Source: Gemmatimonadaceae bacterium (GTDB taxonomy: Bacteria > Gemmatimonadota > Gemmatimonadetes > Gemmatimonadales > Gemmatimonadaceae). Taken from it: 64,000 nucleotides of DNA. The notes beneath the pieces were generated by a model, which saw only the letters and a list, made by a program, of their open reading frames with translations, was not told the origin of the DNA and ran no database searches. The position numbers and the translations under genes are program-made. Each line of letters begins with the position of its first letter. Within the stretch, counting starts at the first letter, position 1. Positions 50,891-61,832 of the stretch are shown in pieces. The DNA lies in assembly GCA_019637355.1 (NCBI GenBank), contig JAHBVT010000001.1, positions 2,697,192-2,761,191 on the forward strand, read 5' to 3'.

Positions 50891-53416
50891 TCACTCGCTC
50901 TCGGGAGCGCTCAGCTCAATCTGTTCATCCGGCCCGGACTCGGCGCCGCCCTCGGCGCCGTCTTCCTTGTCGTCCGACACTACGCGGGCGATCGCCGCCA
51001 CCACGTCGCCGAGCTCGAGGTCCTTGAGCCGCACGCCCTGCGCCACGCGCCCCGTCTCGCGGATGTCCTTCACCGCGCAGCGTAGCGACTGCCCGCCGCG
51101 GGTGATCAGCATCAGGCCGTCTTCCGGCAGCACCTCGAGCAGGCCGACCACGTCGCCGGTCTTCTCGGTGCGTTTCACCGTCAGGATGCCCTTGCCACCG
51201 CGGCCCTGCACGCGGTACTCCTCGACGTTGGTGAGCTTGCCGAGCGCCAGCGAGGTCACCACCAGCAGCGAGGCCTCGCGCTTGACCACCACCATCCCGA
51301 CCACGCGGTCGCCCTCGCCGAGCGCGATGCCGCGCACGCCGGTGGTGTCGCGGCCCATCGGACGCGCCTCCTGCTCGTGGAAGCGGATGCTCAGGCCGTG
51401 CCGCGTCACCAGCACCACGTCGTTCGTGCCCGAGGTGATCTGCACGTCGATGAGTTCGTCGCCGTCCTCGAGCTTGATGCCCTTGATGCCCGTCGAGCGC
51501 ACGTTCGAGTACTCGGACAGCGCCGTCTTTTTCACGGTGCCGTTGCGCGTGCAGAACATCAGGTACTCGTTGTCCGTGAACTGCTTCACCGGCACGATCG
51601 CCTTCACCGTCGTGTCCGGGGACACGTTGATGAGGTTCACGATCGGCTTGCCCTTCGCCGCCCGCGCGCCCTCCGGGATCTCGTGCACCTTGAGCCAGAA
51701 GCAGCGCCCGTCGTGCGTGAACACGAGCAGGTAGTCGTGCGTCTGCGCCACAAAGAGGTGCTCGACGAAATCGTCAGTGCGCAGCTCGGTCCCCTTGGTC
51801 CCCACACCGCCGCGCCGCTGCTTGCGGTAGGTGGAGATGTTGGTGCGCTTGATGTAGCCGGCGTGCGAGATGGTCACGACCATCTCCTCGTTGGCGATGA
51901 GGTCCTCGATCGAGAACTCGCCCTCGTCGCTCACGATCTCGGTGCGGCGCTCGTCGCCGTAGGTCGCCACCAGCGCGCCGAGCTCGTCCTTCATCACCTT
52001 CATCCGCTTGGGCTTGCTGGCCAGCAGCGCCTCGAGCTCCTTGATCTGCCCGCGCACCTCGGCCAGCTCCTCCTCCAGCTTCTCGATCTCGAGGCCGGTG
52101 AGCTTGGCGAGGCGCATATTGAGCACCGCCTCGGCCTGCCGCTCGCTGAGCTTGAAGCGCTTCTGCAGTTGGGCGCTGGCCGCCGGCGAGTCCTCGGCCG
52201 CGCGGATGACCTTGATCACCTCGTCGATGTTGTCGACGCAGATCTTGAGGCCCTCGAGGATGTGCTCCCGCTCCTTGGCCTTGTCGAGGTCGAACTGCGT
52301 GCGACGCACGATGACTTCGTGGCGGTGCGCGATGTAGTGCCCGAGCACCTCGCGCATCCCCATCACCTTCGGGACCAGGCGCTTCGACACCGGGTCCGGC
52401 ACCAGCGCGAGCATAATCACGCCAAAGGTGCTCTGCATCGAGGTGTGCTTGTACAGCTGGTTCAGCACCACCTTCGGGATCGCGTCACGCTTGAGCTCGA
52501 CGACGATGCGCGTCTGTGCATCCGATTCGTCGCGCAGGTCGGAGACGCCTTCGATCTTCTTGTCGCGCACCAGCTCGGCGATGCTCAGCACGAGATTGGC
52601 GCGGTTCACCTGGTATGGCAGTTCGGTGATGACGATCTGCGACTTGTTCGAGGACTCCTTCTCCTCGATCACGGCGCGGGCGCGCATAATCACCTTGCCG
52701 CGGCCCGTCTCGATGTAGTCCTTGATGCCGGCGCGGCCGTAGATGAAGCCGGCTGTCGGGAAGTCCGGCCCCTTGATCAGCCCGCGGATCTCCTCGACCG
52801 TCAGGTCGGGGTTGTCGATCATCGCCGTCACCGCCGCGGCCACTTCGCGCAGGTTGTGCGGCGGGATGTTCGTCGCCATCCCGACCGCGATGCCGGCCGA
52901 GCCGTTCACGAGCAGGTTCGGGAACGCCGACGGCAGCACCGTCGGCTCCTCGAGGCGGTCATCGAAGTTGGGCGCGAAATCGACGGTGTCCTTGTCGATG
53001 TCGGTGAGCATCTCGACCGCGATCTTCGTGAGGCGCGACTCCGTGTAGCGGTACGCCGCCGCCGGATCGCCGTCCATCGAGCCGAAGTTGCCCTGCCCGT
53101 CCACCAGCGGATAGCGCAGCGAGAAGTCCTGCACCATTCGCACCAGCGCGTCGTACACCGACTGGTCGCCGTGCGGGTGGTACTTACCGAGCACGTCACC
53201 CACCACCGTCGCCGACTTCTTGTACGGCCGCCCCGGCACCAACCCGAGCTCGTTCATCGCGTACAGCACGCGCCGGTGCACCGGCTTGAGGCCGTCGCGC
53301 ACGTCCGGCAGCGCGCGGCTCACGATGACGCTCATCGAGTAGTTGATGAACGATTCCTTCACCTCGTCCTGGATCAGGCGCGGGAGGATCCGCTCACGGT
53401 TGTTCGGGGCCGTCAT
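50891..53416 (-). CDS. gyrA: DNA gyrase subunit A
   Basis: An 841-residue type II topoisomerase subunit that cuts and rejoins DNA. It has the winged-helix region with the catalytic Tyr in YRYTES (near residue 124), the coiled-coil arm, and a C-terminal beta-pinwheel with the GyrA box QRRGGVG, which marks gyrase rather than topoisomerase IV. In the quinolone-determining region the usual Ser (E. coli Ser83) is Gln at residue 85 ([11 protein letters not shown]); the acidic residue four positions later (Asp) is kept. The acidic tail is normal. ATG 53416 is a standard start. Confidence 0.97.
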
Positions 53417-53763
53417 AGACGCTCAGATTAGGGGCGATTTTCAGAGGGAACCGCGACCCCGAAAGTTAGGCGATGCGGGGGGCGCAAACAACGGGTAACG
53501 GCGGTCACCACAGAGGGCACAGAGAACTGCCGACCGCGGTTCAACGCAGAGGCGCAGAGGGACGCAGAGAACTGCAAGAAACGTGGGAACCACCACTGCA
53601 AGGACTTGGGGGTCCGCACCGACGCATCGGTGACGGACCCCCAAAGCACTTGCAGTTGCCCTTCTCTGCGCCCTCTGCGTCTCTGCGTTAAGAGGCAGTC
53701 CGCAGTTGGCAGTTGGCGGTTGCAGTTCTCTGTGCCCTCTGTGCCCTCTGTGGTGAAACGCAG
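53417..53763. repeat. Nested palindrome of CACAGAGG-type repeats downstream of a channel-like gene
   Basis: There is no gene in this 347-base gap. An outer inverted pair (53506-53530 and 53722-53755; core CACAGAGGGCACAGAG) encloses a second pair based on CGCAGAGG units (about 53543-53578 and 53649-53690). At the centre is a near-perfect hairpin (TTGGGGGTCCG and CGGACCCCCAA around CACCGA/TCGGTG, 53606-53645). The whole can fold as one long cruciform or RNA stem. The outer repeat is the same one that brackets the GxxExxY gene at 59.8-60.3 kb. The remaining 90 bases upstream of gyrA hold its promoter, which I cannot pinpoint. Confidence 0.85.
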
Positions 53764-54483
53764 TTACCGCGGCTCCACACTCGGCTGCTCTCCCTCCGCC
53801 ATCTCCGACGCCCGCCGCAGCGCCTCGCGCTCCGCCCGCCACTCCTCGTACCAGCGCCGCGTCACCTCGCCCGCGAGCTCACGGTTGCCGAGCCCGAAGC
53901 TCAAGGCCAGCGCCAACGCGACGGCCCCGAAGATGATCGCGAACGCCGTCGTCACGATGCCCGTCGCCACCCCGAGTTCCTGCAGCGACATAAACACGGC
54001 CAGCAGCACCACGCCGCCCTTGCCCACGCGTGCCAGCGTGCCGGCACCGGCCAGCGCACCGGCGCTCGCCGCGATCAAGGCCGCCACCAGGTCGCCCAGC
54101 ACCAAGCCGAGGATCACGATCACCACCGCCGCGATCACGCTCGGCACATAGCTGACCAGCTCGGCGAAGGCCTGGCCGAGGTAGTCGATGCCCAGCGTGT
54201 CGGCGGCGAGCAGCATCGCCGTGAAGAGCAGCACCCAGAACACCACGTTCGCGATCACGCGCGACGGCGTGAGCGGCACGCCGTAGGGATCCAACGGCGG
54301 CTGCACCCCGCCCTTCTCGAGGGCTTCGTTGAGGTGCACGCGGCGCAGCAGGCGTTGCACGGTCCGCTGCGCAAGACGGGCGACGAGATACCCCGCCGTC
54401 AGCACCACCGCCGCGCCGAAGAGCGCCGGGATGTATTCCCAGAGGCGCAGCAGGCTGTCTTGCAATCGATCGAGGAACGTCAT
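53764..54483 (-). CDS. MscS-related small membrane protein with conserved TM helices
   Basis: A 239-residue inner-membrane protein with about five hydrophobic segments of the 'TM_helix' type seen in mechanosensitive channel relatives (IPALFGAAVVLTAGYLVARL, SYVPSVIAAVVIVILGLVLGDLVA, FAIIFGAVALALALSFGLGN). The soluble beta domain of MscS is absent, so channel function is uncertain. It follows the 54499 gene by 15 bases in a minus-strand operon. The C-terminus is a charged helix (RRWYEEWRAEREALRR). Confidence 0.75.
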   Translation of the reverse strand: MTFLDRLQDSLLRLWEYIPALFGAAVVLTAGYLVARLAQRTVQRLLRRVHLNEALEKGGVQPPLDPYGVPLTPSRVIANVVFWVLLFTAMLLAADTLGIDYLGQAFAELVSYVPSVIAAVVIVILGLVLGDLVAALIAASAGALAGAGTLARVGKGGVVLLAVFMSLQELGVATGIVTTAFAIIFGAVALALALSFGLGNRELAGEVTRRWYEEWRAEREALRRASEMAEGEQPSVEPR

Positions 54484-54498
54484 CGGAGTATGTGGGAA

Positions 54499-55656
54499 CT
54501 AGAACGTGATGCGCAGGAGCGGATGGATGCCGGGCGCCTTCGCCGCCACAGCGACGGCCCCGGCCGGGTTCAACTGGATGCGACTGCCGTACTCATAGCG
54601 GCGCCTCTCGTCGAGCGCCGGCTGCGCGTAGCGGCTGGTGAGCCAGGCCCCGCCGATGGCGCCCATCGTCGCGAAGGCCATCGTCGGCGCGGCGTTGCGG
54701 TCGGCCTCGCCGGAGATGAGTACGCCGAGCCCGATGCCCATCAGCGCGCCGGCACCGGCGCCCGACGCGAGCAGCAGGCCCTCCGAACGCGAGTGGTCGT
54801 ACTTGCGCACCAGCAGGCGGTCCGCGCCCCACACCCCGACGAGACCGCCGGCGAGTAGCGAGCCGGCCACCACCGGCGTGCTCGGCGACTGCCCCACGAG
54901 GAAGGTGCTCGCGCCCGTCATCCCGATGCCCGCACCCAGCCACAGCAGCATCGCGTCGCCGGCGGTCACTTCGTAGGCGGCGTTGCCCGCCCAACTGCGG
55001 CCCAGCGCGTAGCCGCCCCAGCCCAGCACCAGCGGGATCGCGATGCGCGCGCTATAGCTCAGTCCTTCGCCGTCGCCTTCCTTGGGGTCGAACACCCAGG
55101 TCAACGCGTACGCCGAGGCCGCGACCAGGTCGTGTCCCACCACGGCCGCCACGGCCTCGCCCTCCGTGAGGCCGCCGCCGATCATCAACCCGGCCGCGGT
55201 GCCCGAGAGCCCGCCGATGAGCGTCAGTGCCGCCACCTCGCGCTGCGGCATACTCGCGGCGTTCCCCAGCAGCAATCCGTTGATCGTGCCGCGCCAGGCC
55301 ATCCGCGAGCTGAGCACCTGCCGCGCCGGCGTAACCTCCACCTGGCGCGCGAGCTCACTGGCCGCAAAGAACGACCCGCCGGCCATCACCATATACGCGG
55401 CCACACGGGTCGCCGGCTCGTCGCCGAGCATCACGGCGAAGGCAGGGCCATACGCCGCCAGGCCGAGCACGAGCTGCGTGCGCACGAACGCCGAGCGCAT
55501 CTCGCGGGAGGTGACGCCGCCGGTACGCGCGGTGTCGCGCGGCTGGACCTCTTCGACGCCGCTCCCGAGGTTCAGACGCCGCGGCGGGTCCTGCTGCGCC
55601 AGGAGCGGCGACGCCGCCAGCGTGAGGACGGCGACGGCGCGGAGAAGGATTCGCAT
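54499..55656 (-). CDS. Hypothetical Gly/Ala-rich envelope protein
   Basis: Not recognised. It has 385 residues with a signal peptide ending near LLAQQ. The middle consists of many short hydrophobic Gly-rich segments (GGLSGTAAGLMIGGGLTEG, GAGAGALMGIGLGVL) that could be membrane helices like those of glycine-zipper proteins. The C-terminus ends HPLLRITF, with a final Phe and alternating pattern typical of an outer-membrane beta strand. The two signals conflict, so location is left open. It sits between the MscS-related gene and an M20 peptidase, with gaps of 15 and 10 bases. Confidence 0.6.
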   Translation of the reverse strand: MRILLRAVAVLTLAASPLLAQQDPPRRLNLGSGVEEVQPRDTARTGGVTSREMRSAFVRTQLVLGLAAYGPAFAVMLGDEPATRVAAYMVMAGGSFFAASELARQVEVTPARQVLSSRMAWRGTINGLLLGNAASMPQREVAALTLIGGLSGTAAGLMIGGGLTEGEAVAAVVGHDLVAASAYALTWVFDPKEGDGEGLSYSARIAIPLVLGWGGYALGRSWAGNAAYEVTAGDAMLLWLGAGIGMTGASTFLVGQSPSTPVVAGSLLAGGLVGVWGADRLLVRKYDHSRSEGLLLASGAGAGALMGIGLGVLISGEADRNAAPTMAFATMGAIGGAWLTSRYAQPALDERRRYEYGSRIQLNPAGAVAVAAKAPGIHPLLRITF

Positions 55657-55666
55657 AGCGCGGAAT

Positions 55667-57199
55667 CTAGCGTACGTTGCCGATGCCCGTCATCACGGCG
55701 GCGACAATCTCGATGCCCTGCCAGAACTCGCCCAAGCGGAGGTGCTCGTTGGCCGCGTGCTGGTTGTTGTCGTAGTTCACCAGCGGCAGCGTCAGGATCC
55801 GCGCAGCGAGGACTTCCTCGAACACGCTCAGCGGCAGGCTGCCGCCGAGAATGGGCACGCGGGCCACGGTCGTGCCCGCGGCGCGCTGCACGACACGGTG
55901 GATCTCCAGCGACCACGGATCGTCGAGCGGCAGTTGCTGCGCCGCGTAGCCCTGCCCCCAGCCGAGACGCACGACGCGCGGATGCGTGCGCAGCGTCGCG
56001 CTGTCCGGCACCTCGTGCACCAGGTGGTAGCCCTGACGCTGCAGATGCCGCTCGACCAACTCGCGCACGCGCACCGGCGTCTGCCCGGGCACGAGGCGGA
56101 AATCGATGGCCGCCGAGGCGCTGGGCATCACGGCGTTGGTGCCCGTGCCACCGGCGAGCTGCGTGATGTTGAGCGCCGGCCGCAGCACGGCCAGCCCCAG
56201 CGGCATCTGCGTCTCCGTGCGCCCTAGCTGCAGTTCAGCCGCGAGACCACGGTCGGGCGATGGCGCGTCGGCGATCGCGCGGCGATCCGCGTCGGTGATC
56301 TCGCGGACGTCGTCGTAGAACCCGTCGATGGTGATGGTGCCGTCTGTCGCGCGCATCCCGGCGAGCAGGTGCGTGAGCTCATTGGCCGGGTTCGGCGCCC
56401 AGTTGCCGTAGTGACCGCTGTGCAGCGCGCGCGCGGGCCCGTAGGTCGTGACGCGCAGGCCCATCACGCCGCGCACGCCGTGCACGATCTGCGGGATGCC
56501 CGACTGGTGCCGCGGTCCGTCGAGGAACAGCCACAGGTCAGCCGCGAGTCGCGCACGATGCGCAAGCAGCATCTCCCGCAGGTGCTGCGAGCCGGCTTCC
56601 TCCTCGCCTTCGAAGAAGAACTTGAGGTTCACGCTCGGCTGCCGCCCCTGCGCGCGCAGCGCGTCCAGCGCCGCGAGCATCATCAGGATCGGCCCGCGGT
56701 CGTCGCTGGCGCTGCGTGCGTAGAGGCGCCAGTTGTTCGCGCGCGGGCCCAGTTGCGCGGCCTCCTCGAGCGTGCGGACTTGCCCGCCGCGTTCGACGTG
56801 CCCGTCGCGCAGCTCCGGCGTGAAGGGCCCCGCGGTGAGCCAGTCGCGGGGCTGCACCGGCTGGCCGTCGTAGTGCGAGTACAGCATCACCGTGCGGCTG
56901 GCGCCTGGCACGAGCAGCTCGCCGTAGACCGCCGGCGGGCTGCCCGGCGTCTCGAGCAAGGCCATCTGCACTCCGCGCCGCTCGAACATCGCCACCAGCG
57001 TATCGGCCACGCGCCGGATGGCCGCCGAATCGCTGGCCACGTTCGGCAATGAGAGGAAGTCGCGGAACCCCTGCAACACCGGCAGCGCATTGGCACGGTG
57101 CCAGGCACGCGTGTCGCGCACCACGGGGTCCGGCGCCTGCGCGGCGACGACCGGCGCGAGGACGCCCAGCAGGGCAAGGCAGCGGAGGATTCGCGTCAT
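55667..57199 (-). CDS. Secreted M20 family dipeptidase-like metallopeptidase
   Basis: A 510-residue zinc peptidase, signal peptide ending near VVAAQ. The metal site is visible: His in LYSHYDGQPV, Asp in ASDDRGP, Glu pair in EGEEEAGS, Asp in FLDGPRHQ and a late His in NNQHAANEHL. The lid domain has ALHSGHYGNWAPNP, as in carnosinase-like dipeptidases. The second domain arrangement and length fit the CNDP/DapE-like branch. It is the second secreted M20 enzyme in the window. It heads the operon ending at the MscS-related gene. Confidence 0.9.
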   Translation of the reverse strand: MTRILRCLALLGVLAPVVAAQAPDPVVRDTRAWHRANALPVLQGFRDFLSLPNVASDSAAIRRVADTLVAMFERRGVQMALLETPGSPPAVYGELLVPGASRTVMLYSHYDGQPVQPRDWLTAGPFTPELRDGHVERGGQVRTLEEAAQLGPRANNWRLYARSASDDRGPILMMLAALDALRAQGRQPSVNLKFFFEGEEEAGSQHLREMLLAHRARLAADLWLFLDGPRHQSGIPQIVHGVRGVMGLRVTTYGPARALHSGHYGNWAPNPANELTHLLAGMRATDGTITIDGFYDDVREITDADRRAIADAPSPDRGLAAELQLGRTETQMPLGLAVLRPALNITQLAGGTGTNAVMPSASAAIDFRLVPGQTPVRVRELVERHLQRQGYHLVHEVPDSATLRTHPRVVRLGWGQGYAAQQLPLDDPWSLEIHRVVQRAAGTTVARVPILGGSLPLSVFEEVLAARILTLPLVNYDNNQHAANEHLRLGEFWQGIEIVAAVMTGIGNVR

Positions 57200-57284
57200 A
57201 CTGGAGCTTCGCCACGGCGCCCGCGCCGCGCCAGCGGGCAGGGACGAGCCGAGGCCCCGCGCACCCCGACAGTTCCGCGCACCG

Positions 57285-57509
57285 CTAGTTCCGCGTCCCG
57301 CGCTTGACGTCGAACAGCACGCTGCGGCGACACTGCGGACAGAGCAGCCACTCGCGCTGCCGCGCGTAGCCCAGGCCGAAGCTGCCGCCGCCGATCGCGC
57401 GTTCGTGCATCCGCACCGCACAGCGCGGGCAGTCGGCGTGCCCGTCGCGCGCGTAGGCCTCGCGCACGCTGCGCTCCTCGTCCGTCGTGAACTGCGCTTT
57501 CTCAGCCAT
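57285..57509 (-). CDS. Small zinc-ribbon protein
   Basis: A 74-residue cytoplasmic protein with a four-Cys ribbon: CPRC near residue 27 and CPQC near residue 57, separated by 26 residues that include a Gly-rich turn. The C-terminus is basic. It may bind nucleic acid or a protein partner. Its start overlaps the end of the dehydrogenase gene by 8 bases, so it is likely coupled. No specific family is recognised. Confidence 0.7.
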   Translation of the reverse strand: MAEKAQFTTDEERSVREAYARDGHADCPRCAVRMHERAIGGGSFGLGYARQREWLLCPQCRRSVLFDVKRGTRN

Positions 57510-58545
57510 CGCTTACCCGCAGCACGAGCTTGCCGAACTGTTCGCCCCGCGCCATCCGCTCGAAAGCCGCGCGACCCTCGGCTAGCGGATACACGGCATC
57601 GACCGTCGGCCAGAGCCGGCCGGCGTTCAGCTCCGCCGTCACCGCCGCGAACTCGGCGTCGTTGCCCATCGTGGAGCCCAGAAGCGACCACTGGTACCAG
57701 AACAGCCGCCGCACGTCCATCTGCAGCTGCGCTCCCGACGTGCCGCCGCAGGTGACCAACCGACCGCCGCGGCTCAGCGCCATCAGCGAAGCGTTCCAGG
57801 TATTCTCGCCCACGCTCTCGATGACCACGTCCACGCCGCGCTTGCCCGTGCGCTCCCGCACGGCGCGCCCCACGTCCTCGCGGGCGTGATCGAGGCAGAC
57901 GTCAGCGCCGAGTGCCGCCGCGCGCTCCAGCTTGGCCGCGTCGGACGACGTGACCCACACGCGTGCCCCGAGCTGCTTGCAGATGCGCAGCGCCGCCTGC
58001 GCCACGCCGCCGCCGATGCCCCAGATCAGCACATCCTCGCCGGCCTGCACCTTCGCGCGCGACACGCACATCCGCCACGCCGTGAGCGTCGCCAGCGTGT
58101 GCGCCGCCGCGACGTCGTCGGGCACGCGGTCCGCAATCGGCAGCACGTTCGCCGCCGGCAGCACGACGAACTCGGCGAAGCTGCCCGGATGGTGTTCGCC
58201 GAGCAGTCCGAAGCGCGGGCAGAGCGGCTGCTCGCCGCGGCGGCACCACTCGCAGTCACGGCAGGAGAGGCCGGGATTCACGACGATGCGCTGGCCCACG
58301 CGCAGGTGCTCGACCGCGTCGCCGACCGACTCCACGACCCCAGTGCAATCCGCGCCGAGCACCCACGGCGGCGTGATCGTCACGCCCGGCAGTCCACCGA
58401 CCGTCCAGAGGTCGAGGCGGTTCAGGGCCACCGCGCGGACGCGGACGCGAACCTCGTGCGGGGCACGGAGTTGCGGCTCTGGCAGATCGTCGCGAAAGCG
58501 GATCTGCTCGGTGCCGCCGTGCGCGTCGATCGTCAGTGCTCGCAC
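57502..58545 (-). CDS. Zinc-containing alcohol dehydrogenase/quinone oxidoreductase (MDR family)
   Basis: A 347-residue medium-chain dehydrogenase. The GroES-like domain has [12 protein letters not shown] and four structural-zinc Cys (CRDCEWC and LC). The position of the first catalytic-zinc Cys is occupied by Leu-Asp (NRLDLW), as in the quinone-reductase-like branch. The NAD(P) site is [12 protein letters not shown]. The start is GTG at 58545 with GAGGAG six bases upstream. It is divergent from sucB with only 26 bases between start codons, so the promoters must overlap the coding regions. Confidence 0.88.
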
Positions 58546-58571
58546 TCCGCTCTCCTCGCTATATTTCGCGA

Positions 58572-59840
58572 ATGATCGAGATTAAGGTTCCCCCCCTCGG
58601 TGAATCGATCACCGAGGCGACCGTCTCCCGCTGGCTCAAGAACGAGGGCGATGCCGTCGCGGTCGGCGACACGCTCGTCGAACTGGAGACGGATAAGATC
58701 ACCGTCGAGGTGCCCGCCCTCAATGCCGGCGTGCTCCGCAAGCGCCTGAAGGCCGAGGGCGATGTGGTGCAGCTGGCCGAGACGCTTGGGCAGTTAGAGG
58801 AAGGTGCATCGGCGGCGGCCAGCGCGCCTGCCGCGGCCGCGCCGGCTCCTGCTGCGGCGGCTCCTGCCGCACCGGCTCCCGCCGCGCCGACTCCCGCCGC
58901 TCCCGCGCCAACTTCATCCCCGAGCGACGTGCGCGCCGCCCCGTCTGCGCAGAAGCTCGCGGCCGCGACCGGCGTCGACCTGTCGTCCGTCCAAGGCAGC
59001 GGCCGCGGTGGCGTGGTCTCCAAGCCCGATGTCATCGCGGCGAGCGCGGCACCGTCGGCTCCTGCGGCCAGCGTCCCGGCGCCCGCGCCGACGACGGCGC
59101 CGGTGAAGGCGCCGCCCGCCCCCGCCCCGCGCGCGGACGGTGTGCGCGAGACGCGCGAGAAGATGACGACGCGCCGCAAGCGCATCGCCGAGAACCTGCT
59201 TCAGGCCCAGCACTCCACCGCGCATCTCACGACGTTCAATGAGATCGATATGAGCGCCGTGTCCGCCGTGCGCGAGCGGATGAAGGAGCGCGTGGAGAAG
59301 GAGCACGGCGTGAAGCTCAGCTTTATGCCCTTCTTCGCGAAGGCCGCCTGCCTGGCGCTGAAGGCGTATCCCGTGGTGAACGCCCAGATCGACGGCGACA
59401 GCGTCATCTACAAGCACTACGTGAACCTCGGCATCGCCGTGGCCAGCGAGCAGGGCCTCGTCGTGCCCAACGTGAAGGACGCCGACCGGATGGGGATGGT
59501 CGGCTTCTCGCGCGCGATGAACGCCGTCGCCAAGCGCGCCCGCGACGGCAAGCTGACGATGGACGACCTCACCGGCGGCACGTTCACCATCACCAACGGC
59601 GGCGTGTTCGGGTCGTTGGTCTCGACGCCGATCATCAACTTCCCGCAGGTCGCGATCCTCGGGCTGCACAAGATCCAGGAGCGGCCGGTGGCCATCGACG
59701 GCCAGGTCGAGATCCGGCCGATGATGTACGTGGCGCTCAGCTACGACCACCGGATCATCGACGGGCAGCAGGCGGTGCTGTTCCTCGTGCGGGTGAAGGA
59801 GCTGATGGAGGATCCGGCGGCGATGTTGATCGACGACTGA
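58572..59840 (+). CDS. sucB: Dihydrolipoamide succinyltransferase, E2 of 2-oxoglutarate dehydrogenase
   Basis: A 422-residue TCA-cycle acyltransferase. The lipoyl domain (residues 1-77) has the lipoylated Lys in ETDKITVEV, typical of the succinyl type. An Ala/Pro-rich linker follows, then the peripheral-subunit-binding domain ([20 protein letters not shown]), a second linker, and the catalytic domain ending with [11 protein letters not shown] 58572 is preceded by ATATTTCGCGA rather than a clear ribosome site. The partner E3 gene lies downstream but is separated by a repeat-bound GxxExxY gene. The E1 gene is not in the window. Confidence 0.94.
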
Positions 59841-60341
59841 ACTGCGGGTCACCACAGAGGGCACAGAGAACACAGAGAACGGCAACTGCTCTTGGGGGCG
59901 GTTGCCGTTCTGGTTTTAGAGGACGAGTCTGATGAGGCCGTCCTTGAGCTGCAGGACGTTGAAGTTGATGAGGAGGCCTTTTCGGTGGCCTGTCAGCTTG
60001 AGGTAGGTGAGCAACTGTGCCGTGTGGATTGGGGAGAGTTTTTCAATGCTCTTTAGTTCGAGTACGAGTTGGTCGGCAACGACTACATCAAGTCGCAGCT
60101 TTGCATCGAGTGCCTGACCTGCGTAGACCAGCGGCACCGAGACGCCCTGTGCGAACGGAACCTCCCGCCTCCGAAGCTCAAACACCAGGCAGGCCTGATA
60201 CACAGACTCCAACAAACCCGGCCCCATCGCCCTGTGTACGGCAATCGCCGCCCCAATCACCGCGTGCGAAACCGAATCCCGCTCCACACACCCCCCAAAG
60301 CGGTTGCAGTTCTCTGTGCCCTCTGTGGTGAATAGCAGTTC
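59841..60341. mobile_element. Inverted-repeat unit carrying a GxxExxY gene
   Basis: A 501-base unit bounded by 32-base inverted repeats that differ at three positions. The inner 22 bases (59850-59871 and 60309-60330, core CACAGAGGGCACAGAG) are perfect complements. Inside lies one minus-strand gene. The ends next to the repeats also resemble each other (GCAACTGCTCTTGGGGG and GCAACCGCTTTGGGGGG). The unit sits between sucB and lpdA, which are usually adjacent, and starts right after the sucB stop. No transposase is present and no target duplication is evident. Calling it mobile is inference from symmetry, position and the second repeat copy at 53.5 kb. Confidence 0.55.
59916..60287 (-). CDS. GxxExxY family protein (PD-(D/E)XK nuclease-like)
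   Basis: A 123-residue protein matching the GxxExxY group (PDDEXK_3-like). The name motif is in GPGLLESVYQACL. Next come the core pieces VPLVYAGQALDAKLRLDVVVADQLVLELK (Asp and Glu-x-Lys of the nuclease core, here LDVVVADQLVLELKS), HTAQLLTYLKLTG, and GLLINFNVLQLKDGLIRLV. It starts at GTG 60287; a longer frame to 61133 runs antisense through lpdA and is not real. The family is widespread in repeat-rich environmental genomes and its function is unproven. Composition is AT-richer than its neighbours. Confidence 0.85.
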   Translation of the reverse strand: MERDSVSHAVIGAAIAVHRAMGPGLLESVYQACLVFELRRREVPFAQGVSVPLVYAGQALDAKLRLDVVVADQLVLELKSIEKLSPIHTAQLLTYLKLTGHRKGLLINFNVLQLKDGLIRLVL

Positions 60342-60422
60342 AGCCCTCGCACGAAACCACCGGAACCCCGCCACCCAAGCCATTAGATTCCACCGCAGCA
60401 CCTCAACCCGAGACACCCCCCA

Positions 60423-61832
60423 GTGCCCGATCAGAACCTCGCCCCGGACCTCGTCGTCATCGGCGGTGGCCCCGGCGGCTATGTCGCCTCCATCCGCGCC
60501 GCGCAGCTTGGCCTCTCCGTCGTCTGCGTCGAGTTCGACAAGACCCTCGGCGGCACCTGCGTCAACGTCGGCTGCATCCCGTCGAAGGCACTGCTCGCCT
60601 CGAGCGAGCACTTCGAGTTCGCGCACAAGCACGCCAAGGAGCACGGCATCGAGCTTGCCGGCGTGCAGCTCAACCTCGCGCAGATGCTCAAGCGCAAGGA
60701 CGACGTCGTCGCGCAGAACACCAAGGGCGTGGAGTTCCTCTTCAAGAAGAACAAGGTCACCTGGGCCAAGGGCGTCGGCACGCTCAAGCCCGGCAACGTC
60801 GTCGAGGTGAAGGCGCTCGACGGCGCGGTCACGACCTACACGCCCAAGCACGTCATCCTCGCGACGGGCTCGGTGCCGATGCAGCTGCCTTTCCTGCCCT
60901 TCGACGAGGAGCGCGTGCTCTCGAACGTCGGCGCGCTGCGCATCCCTGAGGTGCCCACGCACCTGATCGTCATCGGCGGCGGCGTCATCGGCCTCGAGCT
61001 CGGCTCCGTGTGGCAGCGCCTCGGCGCCAAGGTCACCGTCATCGAGTACGCGCCGACGATCCTGCCCGGCAACGACGACGACATCACCAAGGAAGCGCAC
61101 AAGGTCTTCACCAAGCAGGGCCTGGAGATCCACGTCGCGACGAAGGTCACGGACGGTGGGCGCCAGGGTAACCGCGTCGTCGTCGAGACGGAGAAGGACG
61201 GCGCCACGCAGCGCTTCGAGGCCGACTACGTGCTCGTGTCCATCGGCCGCAAACCCTCACTCACCGGCGTGGACGCGGCGGCGCTGGGCCTCGCGCTCGG
61301 CAAGCGCGGCGAGATCCTCGTCGACGCGCAGATGCGCACCAACCTCCCCGACGTATTCGCCATCGGCGACGCCGTCGGCGGCAAGCTGCTCGCGCACAAG
61401 GCCGAGGAGGAGGGCGTGATCGCGGCGGAAGTCATCGCCGGCCACCACGCCAAGATGCACTACCACAATATGCCGGGCGTGGTCTACACCTGGCCCGAGA
61501 TCGCGACGGCGGGGCTCACCGAAGCCGAAGCGCGCGCCACGGGCAAGGCGATCAAGGTCGGCAAGTTCCCCTTCAGCGCCAACGGCCGCGCCCGCTCGAT
61601 GGGCAGCACCGAGGGCTTCGTGAAGTTCGTCACCGACGCCGCCACCGACGAGATCCTCGGCTGCCATATGATCGGCCCCAACGTCAGCGACCTGCTCAGC
61701 GAGATCGTGCTGGCGATGGAGTACCGCGGCACCGCCGATGACGTCGGCGAGACGGTGCACTCGCATCCCACGCTCAGTGAGGTCGTGAAGGAAGCGGCAC
61801 TCGCGGCGTTAGGGAAGGCGGTCCATATCTAA
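60423..61832 (+). CDS. lpdA: Dihydrolipoamide dehydrogenase (E3)
   Basis: A 469-residue FAD disulfide oxidoreductase that reoxidises lipoyl groups of 2-oxo acid dehydrogenases. It has the FAD motif VIGGGPGGYVAS, the redox-active pair in GGTCVNVGCIPSKALL, the NAD motif VIGGGVIGLELGSVW, the second FAD segment FAIGDAVGG, and the C-terminal catalytic HSHPTLSE. It begins with GTG at 60423, 81 bases beyond the repeat unit; its promoter may be inside that unit or upstream of sucB. Confidence 0.95.
   Translation: MPDQNLAPDLVVIGGGPGGYVASIRAAQLGLSVVCVEFDKTLGGTCVNVGCIPSKALLASSEHFEFAHKHAKEHGIELAGVQLNLAQMLKRKDDVVAQNTKGVEFLFKKNKVTWAKGVGTLKPGNVVEVKALDGAVTTYTPKHVILATGSVPMQLPFLPFDEERVLSNVGALRIPEVPTHLIVIGGGVIGLELGSVWQRLGAKVTVIEYAPTILPGNDDDITKEAHKVFTKQGLEIHVATKVTDGGRQGNRVVVETEKDGATQRFEADYVLVSIGRKPSLTGVDAAALGLALGKRGEILVDAQMRTNLPDVFAIGDAVGGKLLAHKAEEEGVIAAEVIAGHHAKMHYHNMPGVVYTWPEIATAGLTEAEARATGKAIKVGKFPFSANGRARSMGSTEGFVKFVTDAATDEILGCHMIGPNVSDLLSEIVLAMEYRGTADDVGETVHSHPTLSEVVKEAALAALGKAVHI

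Follow-up and report, generated by a model that had tools for sequence, protein, structure and literature searches.

A GxxExxY gene as the probable coding member of a palindromic repeat family in Gemmatimonadaceae

A GxxExxY gene framed by inverted repeats between sucB and lpdA

Between sucB and lpdA of a Gemmatimonadaceae genome (G000; 3.15 Mb, 96% complete) lies a small GxxExxY gene enclosed by inverted repeats, which raises the question of whether gene and repeats belong together and, if so, what the encoded protein does to them. An earlier reading of the window (the whole stretch of 64,000 nucleotides that was analysed), made from its letters and called the sequence-only reading below, had placed this unit at 59841-60341, with 32-base terminal repeats of three mismatches and 22 perfect inner bases set directly after the sucB stop codon. 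The unit, the repeat pair and the three mismatches (GGG/TAT) are real, but the inverted repeats are best framed at 59837-59871 (forward strand) and 60309-60343 (reverse strand), with a length of 35 nt and 23 perfect inner bases. The former ends are thus a few bases off in strict register, and the left repeat includes the sucB stop codon TGA (59838-59840), which had been placed ahead of it. The left repeat reads CTGAACTGCGGGTCAC-CACAGAGGG-CACAGAGAAC, the right one is its inverted copy, and both ends of the unit are CTGAACTGC; the same terminal pair is also detected as a longer, weaker match of 54 nt. Named from their translated sequences, the neighbors are sucB on the left (58571-59840, forward strand) and lpdA on the right (60423-61832, forward strand, GTG start).

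The GxxExxY gene lies on the reverse strand (59916-60287, stop codon at 59916-59918), as judged by profile matches, alignment and a structural model, and encodes 123 amino acids from a putative GTG start at 60287. This start was chosen within an open frame that extends to 60314, and many analyses were run on the longer frame 59916-60314. Between gene and unit ends, a second pair of inverted arms (pair I2) spans 59862-59898 on the forward strand, with TTGGGGG at its end, and 60291-60327 on the reverse strand, with CCCCCCAA at its start; the two arms are 37 nt long and 84% complementary, and the left one is a remnant of the core hairpin. Since the TTGGGGG and CCCCCCAA arms match the central-hairpin stem of the gene-less copies described below, the gene occupies the position of the hairpin loop. 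A search of positions 53000-60800 against Rfam gave no match at E <= 0.1.

GxxExxY is a predicted PD-(D/E)XK nuclease

The description of the gene product as a nuclease-fold GxxExxY protein is borne out by profile matches to PF13366 (PDDEXK_3; E 2.1e-39, 134.9 bits versus a cut-off of 22) and TIGR04256 (GxxExxY; E 3.8e-40, 136.9 bits versus a curated cut-off of 35). The GxxExxY motif and the nuclease motifs D..ExK and QxxxY are all present in the window protein, with conserved E27, D67, E77xK79 and Q91xxxY95 in the numbering of the 123-residue form. Across 75 aligned proteins, comprising 30 GxxExxY proteins of relatives and 45 from the best 80 named loci (L200, with an internal stop, was omitted), E, Y and D are invariant (75/75), a further E and the K are each found in 74/75, and Q and Y in 73/75 each. 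An AF2 model (pLDDT 91.8, pTM 0.83) has as its best solved-structure match SSO0001 (Z 9.5, rmsd 3.1, 98 aligned; the next rows start from Z 7.2), which we take to be a Cas4 protein, with a modest Foldseek E-value of 2.1e-3. Hjc, the fdxN excision controlling factor and others match the model below Z 8, which points to a common fold only, and a sequence search of the PDB returned no relative of GxxExxY. Model and motifs together make GxxExxY a predicted PD-(D/E)XK nuclease that has a restriction-endonuclease-like fold and carries a QxxxY motif.

A tblastn search gave no GxxExxY match in 50,697 phage records, and 8 of 72,556 plasmid records have one. A literature search, with preprints and most subscription papers outside its reach, did not turn up any study that connects GxxExxY with repeats; in the portions of text available, the name is mentioned only in passing and given no role.

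A dispersed family of layered palindromes without the gene

As the sequence-only reading had noted, the repeat also occurs in the window without the gene, namely in a copy with the repeat at 53509-53752. The complete element (L056; 53495-53766, no strand assigned, limits drawn by eye with the consensus of the tips as a guide) consists, from the outside inward, of CACAGAGGG arms, CGCAGAG arms and a GGGGGTCCGCACCGA hairpin at the center. With up to two mismatches, the 16-nt core CACAGAGNNCACAGAG has 7 matches in the window versus 0.40 expected, a number reached by none of 100 shuffles. The genome-wide count that had been proposed was made with CACAGAGGNCACAGAG at up to one mismatch and gave 88 matches (44 + 44; reversed control 0 + 0), which group into 27 loci. 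Only one of these loci holds a GxxExxY gene, matching the single PF13366 match of the genome, and the other 26 are gene-less. Both inverted arms are found at 24 of the 27 loci and a single arm at L033, L037 and L041. The 51 readable ends share the common tip AACKGCNNTTCAC followed by CACAGAG, and many copies are layered, with CACAGAG arms on the outside, CGCAGAG arms within and the GGGGGTCCGCACCGA hairpin at the center. The inner pattern matches 31 times in G000, each time within one of the 27 loci, and twice in the other 60 genomes of our comparison.

Two copies are unusual in their surroundings. At L036 (G000:C1:423041-423280) the inverted match runs 10 bases past the element tips, with GGGGGAGAGG on both sides, as if the element sat in an older palindrome. 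L053 (L053:1501-1553; G000:C1:2344100-2344152) is an element reduced to about 80 bases that lies within a coding region, in frame as judged by eye; this region, also by eye, resembles a pyruvate dehydrogenase E2 linker.

The gene-less copy of the window folds as one long hairpin; treated as single-stranded DNA, this copy, the only one folded, reaches -115.4 kcal/mol (z -14.25), and none of 200 shuffles is as good. Of the 51 element ends, 30 have the stop codon of a long ORF (at least 100 codons) no more than 20 nt outside them, 22 of these at -13 to -10, compared to 523 of 6000 non-ORF positions of the window and 50 of 1080 positions drawn at random from the same loci. Since TAACGGC or TGAACGGC is a frequent reading of the tips, part of the stop codon may come from the element. 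Such a position past stop codons and so stable a fold would suit bidirectional host hairpins involved in termination or mRNA stability, with GxxExxY as a resident, immobile regulator or processing nuclease acting on DNA or RNA, and it fits this explanation that all 7 genus genomes with GxxExxY keep it close to lpdA. We nonetheless consider a purely regulatory role improbable, as a copy placed in frame within a coding region (L053) does not agree with it, and neither do the comparisons between species given below.

Direct signs of movement were sought as well. Target-site duplications were not found at 24 elements (mean 2.67 nt versus 2.73 for shuffled flanks, a value reached by 128 of 200 shuffles, with element boundaries uncertain by a few bases in this test), and neither a transposition intermediate nor a polymorphic insertion was seen within the species examined. 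The copies could still be ordinary MITEs moved by a DDE or other transposase encoded elsewhere, with GxxExxY merely riding along: they are intergenic and have terminal inverted repeats as MITEs do, and relatives contain IS elements that even interrupt these palindromes in G011 (type assigned by eye). The lack of target-site duplications speaks against such a passenger role, which we regard as unlikely, as does the absence of the Y1 (HUH) transposase PF01797 from all 10 genomes searched for it (the control search was positive in 5 of 14 known genomes). The sole coding member of the palindrome family that we have seen holds GxxExxY.

Many GxxExxY genes of other genomes are bracketed by inverted tandem arrays

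Among relatives, 13 of 30 GxxExxY genes, including the one in the window, are bracketed by inverted repeats when flanks of 200 nt are examined at a threshold score of 34, compared to 0 of 300 controls. Similarly, tight brackets of inverted tandem arrays enclose 49 of 78 testable GxxExxY genes from many phyla among the matches listed, compared to 1 of 390 controls; this sample consists of the best 80 named loci, two of which lie too close to a contig end for testing. The ends seen across phyla often resemble TTCACC-ACAGAG-ACACAGAG (again among the matches listed) and occur in loci titled Proteobacteria, Planctomycetota, Acidobacteria, Bacteroidetes, Chloroflexi, Verrucomicrobia, a Methanothrix and others. 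At the same threshold, 17 of the 30 genes of relatives and 29 of the 78 from other phyla (among the matches listed) have no clear bracket, which counts against the idea that GxxExxY is the repeats' own nuclease.

That GxxExxY recurs in brackets across many phyla, each time with its own end sequence, is difficult to reconcile with a mere passenger of foreign MITEs. It also bears on a further explanation, in which gene and repeats are independent and simply gather in the same tolerant gaps past stop codons. Although the insertion context is indeed common to both and the genus has two favored gaps (sites A and B, see below), tight brackets with matched ends in unrelated genomes would be unexpected from a shared hot spot, as would the matched lineages of repeat and gene, and we strongly disfavor this explanation as very improbable.

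Repeat types co-vary with the presence of GxxExxY among 61 genomes

The sequence-only reading had proposed that termini and gene be examined for covariation, and between genomes they do co-vary, both in number and, as shown further below, in lineage. For counting, four repeat types were taken from the ends of relatives' GxxExxY genes. They have 551 matches in the 21 of 61 genomes that contain GxxExxY, versus 9 in the 40 genomes that do not, and at least one match is found in 13 of the 21 versus 4 of the 40. As the patterns were drawn from GxxExxY genes themselves, this count tests specificity and not whether every such repeat is accompanied by GxxExxY.

The individual types are distributed accordingly. 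All 6 of the 61 genomes with CACAGAGGNCACAGAG contain GxxExxY (G016 with 136 matches, G000 69, G032 56, G029 46, and G021 and G031 1 each). The type GACAGGATGNACAGGA is confined to G032 among the 61 genomes, with 54 matches, and these GACAGGATG repeats are thus exclusive to the genome whose GxxExxY gene has that end; G032 has nine TIGR04256 matches, of which some are fragments. More widespread is CACGGAGACACGGAG, with matches in genomes containing GxxExxY (G015 26, G002 18, G011 and G019 2 each, G007 and G029 1 each) and in others lacking it (G058 6, G010 and G039 1 each); for this type the reversed control is compromised, its string being a variant of the repeat. The fourth type, CACGAAGNCACGAAG, is found in G011 (101), G007 (21), G002 (9), G060 (6) and G030 (1) as well as once in G042, which lacks GxxExxY. 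Gene-positive G003 shows no clear bracket (L073) and no match to any of the four types. In the relatives searched, the dispersed repeat is the one that brackets the GxxExxY gene. The G000 type is CACAGAGG and the G011 type CACGAAGG. These sequence comparisons support the conclusion that GxxExxY genes and the repeats form one linked system.

Gene lineage, repeat type and turnover within the genus

In the genus, the loci share the gene order QOR-like gene, sucB, site A, lpdA, DinB-like gene, site B, anti-sigma-like gene and sigma-like gene, with neighbors named by sequence resemblance. GxxExxY was matched, always as a single copy, in 7 of 17 genus genomes (G000 counted), and no match was found in the other 10, which argues against an essential role such as host regulation might imply. 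The unit resides at site A between sucB and lpdA in G000, G016 and G003, at site B between the DinB-like and anti-sigma-like genes in G011, G002, G007 and G015, and at both sites in none of the loci read; G016 has one solo arm left at site B. Site A is without the unit in G007, G015, G010, G001, G008, G012, G004, G009 and G011, and that of G002 was read incompletely, with no sucB match beside lpdA in the available stretch. The alignment of sucB-lpdA loci suggested by the sequence-only reading has thus turned up vacant sites in most relatives. The unit is not fixed at one place, and gene and repeat occur together elsewhere, so that the idea of a link between them stands. Mobility of the gene unit as the main story was rejected in part, with the gene being single-copy and found at one of two nearby sites. 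By eye, a glycosyltransferase-like gene lies between sucB and lpdA in G016, G003 and G009 (L122, L123 and L130) and is absent from G000. There the repeat includes the sucB stop, and a deletion reaching as far as the repeat end may have occurred.

FastTree phylogenies of host proteins and GxxExxY disagree: the former groups G000 with G011 and G002 (support 0.998), the latter with G016 and G003 (support 0.82-0.87; 0.74-0.95 inside the genus clades of this tree and 0.16 at a deeper node). G000 and G011/G002 are about 91% identical in host proteins and 49-52% in GxxExxY, and their repeats differ, while G000 and G016 are 79% identical in host proteins and 68% in GxxExxY and have repeats identical in type. 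Even G011 and G002, with host proteins 96.9% identical, share only 59% identity in GxxExxY and differ in their dominant repeats. GxxExxY thus diverges far faster than the neighboring host proteins (L057, L119-L124), and, as judged from these trees and repeat types, the type of repeat follows the GxxExxY lineage and not the species. This agreement against the species tree would not be expected if GxxExxY were a passenger of another transposase, and the wholesale change of repeat type between close species is unlike the behavior of conserved regulatory sites.

For G011, the available 785 kb contain both flanks of 13 of the 27 G000 loci, i.e., 12 gene-less loci and the gene locus. G011 holds an element or arm of its own type at 7 of these 12 gene-less sites (L045, L047, L049, L052, L055, L056 and L058) and is empty at the remaining 5 (L046, L048, L050, L051 and L053), which again does not suit a regulatory function. 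Shared sites with different ends imply either repeated insertion at one spot or replacement of the ends in place, and we favor in-place replacement; the ends could also have changed at conserved sites through host recombination alone, by repeat slippage and conversion. Three G011 palindromes (L119 and the counterparts of L045 and L047), one of them the GxxExxY unit itself, are interrupted by transposase genes (IS110-like and another, by eye).

Relation to known repeat systems

The REPIN/RAYT systems, as described in the parts of the literature available to us, combine one resident gene with many gene-less, hairpin-forming inverted doublets that are intergenic and of lineage-specific types (PMC3116915; PMC3733652). 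The GxxExxY system resembles them in its dispersed inverted doublets (24 of 27 loci two-armed, hairpin z -14.25) but differs in its protein, a predicted PD-(D/E)XK nuclease instead of the Y1/HUH tyrosine transposase of RAYTs, and in its ends, which are tandem 7-9-mers rather than GTAG-tagged palindromes; no GTAG was found at the repeat end among the 51 ends of the 27 loci, where the tip is AACKGCNNTTCAC-CACAGAG. In TIRtrons/TIRYTs, according to the accessible part of the source, RAYT-like genes are flanked by long TIRs whose families are also dispersed alone (PMC3733652). A gene bracketed by TIRs that also occur by themselves is what we see for GxxExxY, with the difference of a predicted restriction-endonuclease fold in place of a tyrosine transposase.

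A PD-(D/E)XK protein has been linked to miniature inverted repeats before, as the hupL MITE family of Candidatus Thiomargarita nelsonii was proposed, in the part of that study available, to originate from a PD-(D/E)XK_2 element (PMC4853749). The protein there is PF12784 (YhgA-like), and the same portion of text describes a 19-bp inverted repeat with a 10-bp direct repeat on its outer side, while no direct repeat was found for GxxExxY elements. The absence of Y1 transposases from the 10 genomes searched and of the GTAG tag, together with this precedent, suggests a variant of the REPIN/RAYT-TIRtron type and not a typical member. 23S rRNA intervening sequences with an S23/four-helix-bundle ORF, called selfish elements in the available part of their description (PMC4990558), are similar as units of about 430 nt with one small ORF. 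Their protein has another fold, and the classic ones lie in rRNA and are excised by RNase III, whereas the GxxExxY unit is intergenic; situated between sucB and lpdA and encoding GxxExxY, it is no such intervening sequence. Finally, as far as the source was accessible, the TAACTGA repeats of marine Beggiatoaceae are likewise short tandem arrays (of 7-mers) that are mostly intergenic, with some overlapping ORF ends, but these arrays are mostly direct rather than inverted and no gene has been assigned to them there (PMC4679880).

A proposed role for the nuclease

We consider it likely that the unit is the coding member of the palindromic repeat family and GxxExxY the family's own nuclease, in a REPIN/RAYT-like arrangement whose movement would be read from the distribution of its copies. 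Since a different gene type comes with a different repeat type from relative to relative, the GxxExxY nuclease probably copies or maintains these selfish-looking palindromic repeats. The earlier proposal that GxxExxY proteins move or maintain the repeats therefore keeps its core (linkage, covariation and brackets), while its transposition part found no counterpart in target-site duplications or intermediates, and this lack of any direct sign of movement also counts against the own-nuclease interpretation. As the gene looks resident, a mobile gene unit is a poorer fit than a nuclease acting in trans to maintain, convert or spread the repeats.

In the mechanism that we propose, the nuclease would recognize tandem units of 7-9 nt that belong to its own type. 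Since the element is able to form a long hairpin or cruciform by folding back on itself, cleavage might take place there or, alternatively, at a target. Repair could then fill the break with a copy of a current-type element, which is the step that we are least sure of. Elements would thereby spread to new sites, chiefly just past stop codons, and older elements would be overwritten in place. If so, GxxExxY, a common name in environmental genomes, gains a proposed substrate and a testable job, and its activity would explain a class of "CACAGAG/CACGGAG" repeats that many genomes contain. A nuclease-based dispersal route would also be added for bacterial palindromes, until now credited to HUH transposases. 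As gene and repeat turn over in pairs between close species, exchanging the types offers a direct test of recognition. Abundant repeats without an assigned agent are described in the accessible part of a report on Gemmatirosa kalamazoonensis (PMC11237797).

A second family with a parallel layout

Four-helix-bundle genes of relatives (PF05635, 23S_rRNA_IVP) are found in an inverted tandem-repeat layout, too, which suggests that the arrangement arose more than once. A broader reading is conceivable, and we put it forward tentatively, as one that may well prove wrong. GxxExxY would represent a widespread, unrecognized class of selfish elements with a single gene each, found in bacteria and in one archaeal genome or more, and PF05635 would drive a parallel class. 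As parts of the same joint reading, each GxxExxY element would consist of a minimal PD-(D/E)XK nuclease and trans-dependent, layered palindromes of tandem 7-9-mers, nuclease and repeat would co-evolve so fast that sister species carry different types, and a new type would overwrite old copies in place by nuclease-driven conversion.

At the window and threshold used for GxxExxY, 16 of 20 PF05635 genes of relatives lie between inverted arrays of 7-8-nt tandem units, compared to 3 of 200 controls, and flanks of 350 nt give 17 of 20; PF05635 status is known for part of the 61 genomes, from a search that sampled 200 of the phylum. The loci are L135-L154 (e.g., L138:1017-1328; G009:C3:109513-110049). 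In G009, AGATGNGAG brackets the PF05635 gene and is also dispersed in the genome, with 86 matches.
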